Made by a program: the position numbers and the translations under genes. Below, piece by piece: positions 53,605 to 54,300 of a stretch of DNA of 64,000 nt. The stretch spans positions 1,674,001-1,738,000 of the forward strand of contig NZ_CP082249.1 of assembly GCF_019879105.1 (NCBI RefSeq), given 5' to 3'. The stretch comes from Natrinema sp. SYSU A 869 (GTDB lineage: Archaea; Halobacteriota; Halobacteria; Halobacteriales; Natrialbaceae). A model generated the notes under the pieces. The model saw only the letters and a program-made list of their open reading frames with translations, did no database searches and was not told where the DNA came from. The number at the start of each line of letters is the position of its first letter. Within the stretch, counting starts at the first letter, position 1.

Positions 53605-54197
53605 CTGGGTGAGAGGAGTAAGCCCCTTCTGTTCGGCCCGGCATTCGGCTGAGCGTCCGCGCCGTCCGCGGCGGAGCCGCGGGGCGTTCGGGCTACCACG
53701 GCACGGACTTGCACCGGTGAGGATTCGCCGTTCCATCGATCCTCGGCCGTCTCTGTGTGGCCGATCACGCCGTTTGCGGTTCTCGCACCGAACGCGCTCC
53801 GAACCGCGCTCGTGATCACACGGATTCGAACCGTGATCAGCCGACCACACGCCCTCAGCGGGTCAACTCCCCTTCCTCTCGGTCGGGTTCGCACGCATCA
53901 TCGGTCGGGCCGAGACGTGTCGTTTCTGTTCCAGCGCCAGCGGTCTCCCGCTCCGGACTTGCGTCCGGTCACCTGCCCGAACAGGTGGGGGGACTTTCCT
54001 CGCGGGCGTGGCGCATCTCGAAGAGATGGGCCACGTTATGAGCGTAGGGCGTCCTGAAGGGACGGCCCACGTTACGCGCGTTGTGCGTCCCGAGGGACGA
54101 ACAACGGTAGAGCATGATCGTCCCGAAGGACGGATCACGGTAGGTGGTCCCACCGTTGCCGGCGGGACCATCGCGGCAGCCGGGCTCTCTCTCCCAT
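53605..54197 (-). ncRNA. rnpB: RNase P RNA with expanded P3 region
   Basis: Catalytic RNA that matures tRNA 5' ends. Diagnostic motifs on the minus strand: CR-I GAGGAAAGTCC (54001-53991), ACAGAAACGACACG (53929-53916), CACCGGTGCAAGTCCG (53719-53704) and CR-V GAACAGAAGGGGCTTA (53634-53619). P1 pairs 54196-54187 (TGGGAGAGAG) with 53615-53606 (CTCTCACCCA), one mismatch; P2 pairs GCCCGGC (54185-54179) with GCCGGGC (53642-53636). Between P2 and CR-I, where P3 should be one short hairpin, are five hairpins. A stem with a TTCGAAT loop (53819-53835) mimics a tRNA T arm. About 593 nt, longer than usual. A T-run follows the 3' end. Confidence 0.88.
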
Positions 54198-54216: not shown

Positions 54217-54224
54217 CGAATAAG
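54217..54224 (-). promoter_or_regulatory. TATA box of rnpB
   Basis: CTTATTCG on the minus strand, centred about 24 bases upstream of the predicted RNA 5' end at 54197, the correct spacing for an archaeal promoter. Confidence 0.6.
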
Positions 54225-54300
54225 TCCCCCGGTCGAAACGACAAAAAGAGCGCGTACCGAATAGAAGCGTTTTAGGACGACTATCCCCTTGTCCATCTGT

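Follow-up and report, generated by a model that had tools for sequence, protein, structure and literature searches.

The gene for archaeal ribonuclease P (RNase P) RNA in Natrinema sp. SYSU A 869, encoded on the minus strand at positions 53606-54196 of a 64,000-nucleotide (nt) stretch of contig NZ_CP082249.1 (positions 1,674,001 to 1,738,000; hereafter the window), carries in its P3 region a branched domain of five hairpins. In the consensus of type A archaeal RNase P RNAs (Rfam RF00373) P3 is usually a single short hairpin, whereas here it occupies 177 of 591 nt between the 5' strand of P2 and conserved region I (CR-I), and consists of a 4-base-pair (bp) base, a hairpin of one kind (A) and four tandem hairpins of another (B). 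Across the Natrialbaceae the B hairpins change in number by whole units, their stems covary, and high-scoring copies occur nowhere else in the genomes of the genus. This array is probably a lineage-specific expansion segment within an RNase P RNA that is predicted to be functional.

Organization of the P3 domain

The base of P3 is formed by two CGCG strands (54172-54175 and 54001-54004; all features are given on the minus strand), of which the second runs into CR-I, with 54001 being the first G of the latter. This basal helix was recovered in an RNAalifold consensus of 38 two-hairpin relatives, and its pairing with the CGCG at the start of CR-I is found in all 38. Hairpin A (54145-54170) has 11 bp and a GCAA tetraloop of the GNRA type, a loop shared by hairpin A in 104 of 107 relatives. 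The B hairpins comprise B1 (54113-54139), a shortened unit of 27 nt located in the sequence as a hairpin, B2 (54079-54106; 28 nt), and two 29-nt units, B3 (54043-54071) and B4 (54007-54035), the last lying 2 nt from the P3 base. A covariance model of B units (R1) matched B2, B3 and B4 with 34.6, 35.5 and 44.6 bits respectively, the sequence of B4 being itself included in the model. The typical B unit is a 29-nt hairpin with 6 bp, usually a C.C mismatch, a further 6 bp and, in most units, a C-NYC-G triloop, which together with a linker of about 7 nt gives a total of about 36 nt. Hairpins A and B are therefore distinct elements, of which B alone has been multiplied.

The first-pass annotation, made from the sequence of the window, had placed the five hairpins at exactly these coordinates, and both their location in P3 and the firm boundaries it proposed were upheld by comparison with 113 Natrialbaceae genomes. 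It had described a tandem array, which is correct, with the refinement that the five hairpins are not all alike, hairpin A being distinct, and that P3 branches on its 4-bp base. The last four hairpins are indeed regularly spaced, with start-to-start distances of 33, 35 and 36 nt rather than 34-36 nt. The upper stem CGTCC/GGACG ascribed to all four is present in B1-B3 and replaced by CATCTC/GAGATG in B4, and the terminal ACG likewise ascribed to all of them is ATG in B1.

The array is not a chance feature, because the whole RNA folds with a z-score of -5.9, the unit pattern matches the window nine times where 2.4 matches are expected (B4 and B3 being the best two), and the domain recurs in relatives in length classes differing by whole units. 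A repeat search at default settings found no repeats in it, probably because the arms are shorter than 12 nt and the units too diverged.

Variation in hairpin number across the Natrialbaceae

The comparison covered 113 Natrialbaceae genomes from 27 genera, in which P3 was parsed by a motif-anchored method and hairpin counting relied on a multiloop-penalised local fold with a minimum of 7 bp per hairpin, so that counts in irregular arrays, notably those of genus g11, are approximate. Two to eight P3 hairpins were found in 107 of these genomes, nearly all with A plus one to five B units: 42 have two hairpins, 36 three, 18 four, six five, and five have 6-8, with the remaining six possessing a short P3. 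Median P3 lengths at two, three, four, five and six hairpins are 73, 108, 144, 180.5 and 215 nt, that is, steps of 34.5-36.5 nt, and these classes about 36 nt apart imply that units come and go whole. The largest P3 domains seen, of about 250-290 nt with 7-8 mixed irregular hairpins, belong to genus g11 (L204, L167, L168 and L172).

More than one hairpin-number state is present within 12 of the 27 genera. Some genus mates of the Natrinema genome have P3 regions identical to those in named Natrinema records, which places the genome in the Natrinema group of the family. When mapped on a phylogeny of the rnpB core, which was built without P3 and has many weak branches, hairpin number requires 44-45 changes against 73 with shuffled labels. 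Well-supported sisters differ by insertions or deletions of whole units (L003/L016, L044/L155, L152/L156 and L017/L012), and similar units occur in changed order in L012/L014 and L013/L021. Comparison with related rnpB genes, which the first-pass annotation had proposed as a check on its reading, thus bears it out in both respects, as hairpin number varies by whole units and the stems covary (see below).

Evidence for selection on the structure of the B units

Without being given a structure, RNAalifold recovered the base, A and B from the 38 two-hairpin relatives, and 17 of the 27 pairs show changes on both sides. Similarly, in 27 diverse 29-nt B units 97.8% of the cells are paired, against 78.2% when shuffled and 30-44% when slid by 1-3 positions; eight of the 12 pairs are changed on both sides, doubly changed cells number 74 against 24.5 in shuffles, and the covariation score is 0.61 against 0.21 +/- 0.02. 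Since this set was picked by folding, a fairer test is given by the 29 nt upstream of CR-I at each locus, taken without folding: the 86 distinct windows so anchored are 85.6% paired, against 69.4% when shuffled (maximum 72.2) and 36-46% when slid, where relatedness among the sequences is not taken away by the shuffling and is retained in the slid controls. The compensating changes that the first-pass annotation had noticed among the units therefore extend across relatives, and they point to selection on the structure of the B unit. There was no signal of selection for unlike units within an array, such as would avoid cross-pairing, with 8.12 cross-pairs observed against 8.12 expected.

Expansion segment, binding platform or exchanged module

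The favoured explanation is that the P3 stem was turned into a multibranch domain that expanded at the P3 tip. Whole units would then be gained, lost and re-ordered, presumably via recombination between arrays, with selection holding each unit as an autonomous hairpin, so that the array does not interfere with the catalytic fold. A role that depends critically on copy number is disfavoured because hairpin number changes fast, and the exact number may well be dispensable.

Two sets of observations weigh against so passive a role. First, among 107 29-nt units in arrays the C.C mismatch is kept in 79, the C-NYC-G loop in 80 and the CGU..ACG ends in 96, which argues for a constraint beyond folding that free hairpins would not need. 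Second, identical 29-mers occur in 63 of 7569 unit pairs between genera (1 in 120, about 96 times the 1 in 11,573 that would be expected if pairs were independent), while hairpin A is identical in none of 5002 between-genus pairs. Both give a hint of a module that is recognised or exchanged, as opposed to a passive spacer.

Recognition could be by a protein, or by the Rpp30 or Pop5 subunits of a neighbouring enzyme, with the C.C mismatch, the CGU/ACG ends or the NYC loop as the recognised feature and copy number tuning occupancy or higher-order assembly. Consistent with this, the units retain their length, mismatch, loop and ends even as the stems covary. P3 also lies at a protein surface in the M. 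jannaschii holoenzyme, in which Pop5 occupies the junction of P2 and P3 and the partner RNA carries Rpp30 on its short P3 stem (PMC6565675); a large branched P3 would be positioned at this Pop5/Rpp30 surface. However, the number of B units swings from one to five among related species, and the features are less well kept in single-B genomes, in which the C.C mismatch is present in 10 of 25. A binding platform is accordingly regarded as unlikely, if worth keeping in view, and the structured expansion segment is favoured over it.

With regard to the origin of the units, identity within an array (0.615) equals that between arrays (0.622 +/- 0.010), implying that most units are not recent local copies; the duplicated units of the first-pass annotation are thus tandem, but for the most part not recent local duplicates. 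A unit identical to B4 is present in genera g1, g19 and g28. In between-genus pairs sharing an identical B unit the mean identity of hairpin A is only 0.68, so that unit types appear to have their own common history. It is conceivable, although the balance tilts against it, that short recombination tracts carry units horizontally from one species to another, with the arrays drawing on a shared pool. The excess of identical units between genera beside this divergence of hairpin A, the re-ordered units between sisters and the equal identity within and between arrays all fit such exchange; on the other hand, strong constraint on the sequence of a few types of unit would give the same picture, and exchange tracts that span about 36 nt and leave no trace in the flanks would be very short. 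Recombinational exchange and constraint on few types could both explain the identical units across genera. As horizontal exchange concerns origin, it is compatible with either an expansion segment or a binding platform. A combination of exchange and recognition, in which the array is cassette-like, unit types are pooled, exchanged and re-ordered between species, and RNase P is tuned by the number of B motifs, recognised as modules by a protein or by another RNA, appears rather doubtful.

The palindromic form of the units, their variable copy number and the identical units in different genera might also suggest invasion of rnpB by a mobile palindromic element. A dispersed element of the repetitive extragenic palindromic kind, with many copies at unrelated sites, is at odds with searches of this genome and 28 genus mates, where every match of the B-unit model above 35 bits falls in rnpB and the other matches are single, weak and scattered. 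An invading element is hence the most improbable of the explanations considered. Genome G015 has three equal-scoring weak matches outside rnpB (C1:1780384, C3:156422 and C3:285088), which are possibly a terminator or insertion-element hairpin.

The RNase P RNA gene, its ends and its promoter

The gene matches RF00373 with 108.8 bits, above the curated cut-off of 84, and rnpB is single-copy in the 5.67-Mb genome, as it is in each of the 28 genus mates, which yield one match apiece. The features that define the family, namely CR-I, CR-IV, CR-V and the P1/P2 pairing, are all present. The 5' strand of P1 (UGGGAGAGAG, 54187-54196) pairs with its 3' strand (CUCUCACCCA, 53606-53615) in the minimum free energy fold, and that of P2 (GCCCGGC, 54179-54185) is the complement of GCCGGGC at 53636-53642. 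The Rfam match and location in the sequence identify CR-I (GAGGAAAGUCC, 53991-54001), the CR-V region (GAACAGAAGGGGCUUA, 53619-53634) and a conserved stretch at 53918-53929 (ACAGAAACGACA), which we take to be the CR-IV region. Membership in RF00373 stands, since the difference in P3 is a length variation at a peripheral site with no loss of any core part; the form is a variant of a known RNA and not a new kind of RNA.

Alignment to the RF00373 covariance model, the other check proposed with the first-pass annotation, recovered the gene, but began at 54019, within B4, instead of 54196. The 5' end is thus misplaced by about 177 nt, with letters of B4 forced into P1 with several non-pairs and P2 and P3 deleted. 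In the two-hairpin relative L044 the alignment begins at the P1 proposed in the first-pass annotation, and the start at 54019 is a failure of the model, not a true 5' end. As a consequence, genomes of this kind will receive a truncated RNase P RNA gene in automatic annotation.

Upstream of P1 is a TATA-like box (ACTTATTC, 54218-54225) corresponding to a conserved motif: of the 113 Natrialbaceae loci, 98 have ACTTATT or ACTTAAC upstream of the P1 5' motif at a distance of 30-31 nt, at any hairpin number. The fixed distance of this box from P1 and the enclosure of the array by core elements of the ribozyme argue that the array is transcribed, and it is presumably retained in the mature RNase P RNA. 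Long hairpins in peripheral loops are typical targets of excision, and the array might instead be removed to leave a two-piece RNA joined by P1/P2 and the core, as with the intervening sequences of fragmented ribosomal RNA (rRNA). This is improbable given that B4 lies so close to the P3 base and that the basal helix is kept in all the aligned relatives; furthermore, no conserved processing motif was noticed, albeit without a systematic search for one.

Relationship to known RNAs

The gene shares with other type A archaeal RNase P RNAs the same CR-I, CR-IV, CR-V, P1 and P2, the core fold and the single copy, and departs from them in P3. Enlargement of P3 is reminiscent of the eukaryotic RNase P/MRP P3 domain, which binds Rpp20/Rpp25 or Pop6/Pop7; that domain is an unbranched helix-internal loop-helix, unlike the RNAalifold consensus here, which is branched, with a multibranch junction of many hairpins. 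Tandem repeats that vary between species are also known in RNase P RNA genes of heterocyst-forming cyanobacteria, where short tandemly repeated repetitive (STRR) sequences were reportedly described by Vioque in 1997 (cited in PMC2858038). STRRs are short repeats, heptamers in the P12 region, whose copies do not each form a covarying hairpin; the present units differ from them in being 36-nt covarying hairpins in P3.

RNase P RNA ranks as one of the most ancient ribozymes, and it is customary to regard its helices as fixed characters. In the single family Natrialbaceae one helix behaves as a repeat of variable number, the units of which are each under structural selection. The arrays offer a natural series for studying the amount of structure that an essential ribozyme will tolerate, whether P3 in archaea serves as a protein or dimer interface, and the growth and shrinkage of structured repeats. 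A further parallel is with the expansion segments of rRNA and RNase P RNA, which likewise place lineage-specific helices at the periphery and leave the core unremodelled (PMC12974513), the differences being the equal repeated units and the rapid change in copy number within one family. A full-text literature search, with the classic comparative papers on archaeal RNase P RNA structure outside its reach, found no earlier description of a P3 hairpin array, which is provisionally regarded as undescribed.

P3 in other haloarchaeal families and a T-arm-like hairpin in P12

In most of the haloarchaeal families sampled outside the Natrialbaceae P3 is one hairpin, commonly of 15-60 nt, and the two-hairpin form is also found in genus g35 of family f7. 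In L201, L207, L231 and L212 (families f6 and f14) P3 contains short CGUGCC-NNNN-GGCACG repeats, which could fold as 2-3 tandem hairpins or one long one and are possibly independent expansions of P3.

The P12 domain of the Natrinema gene (53814-53838) contains a hairpin with the perfect form of a transfer RNA T-arm (CACGG-TTCGAAT-CCGTG). Such hairpins, with stems that vary but remain complementary, are present in 46 of the 113 Natrialbaceae rnpB genes and in none of 55 from other families, against 0.3 expected in all from shuffling. This hairpin might dock at the site by which RNase P recognises the T-loop.
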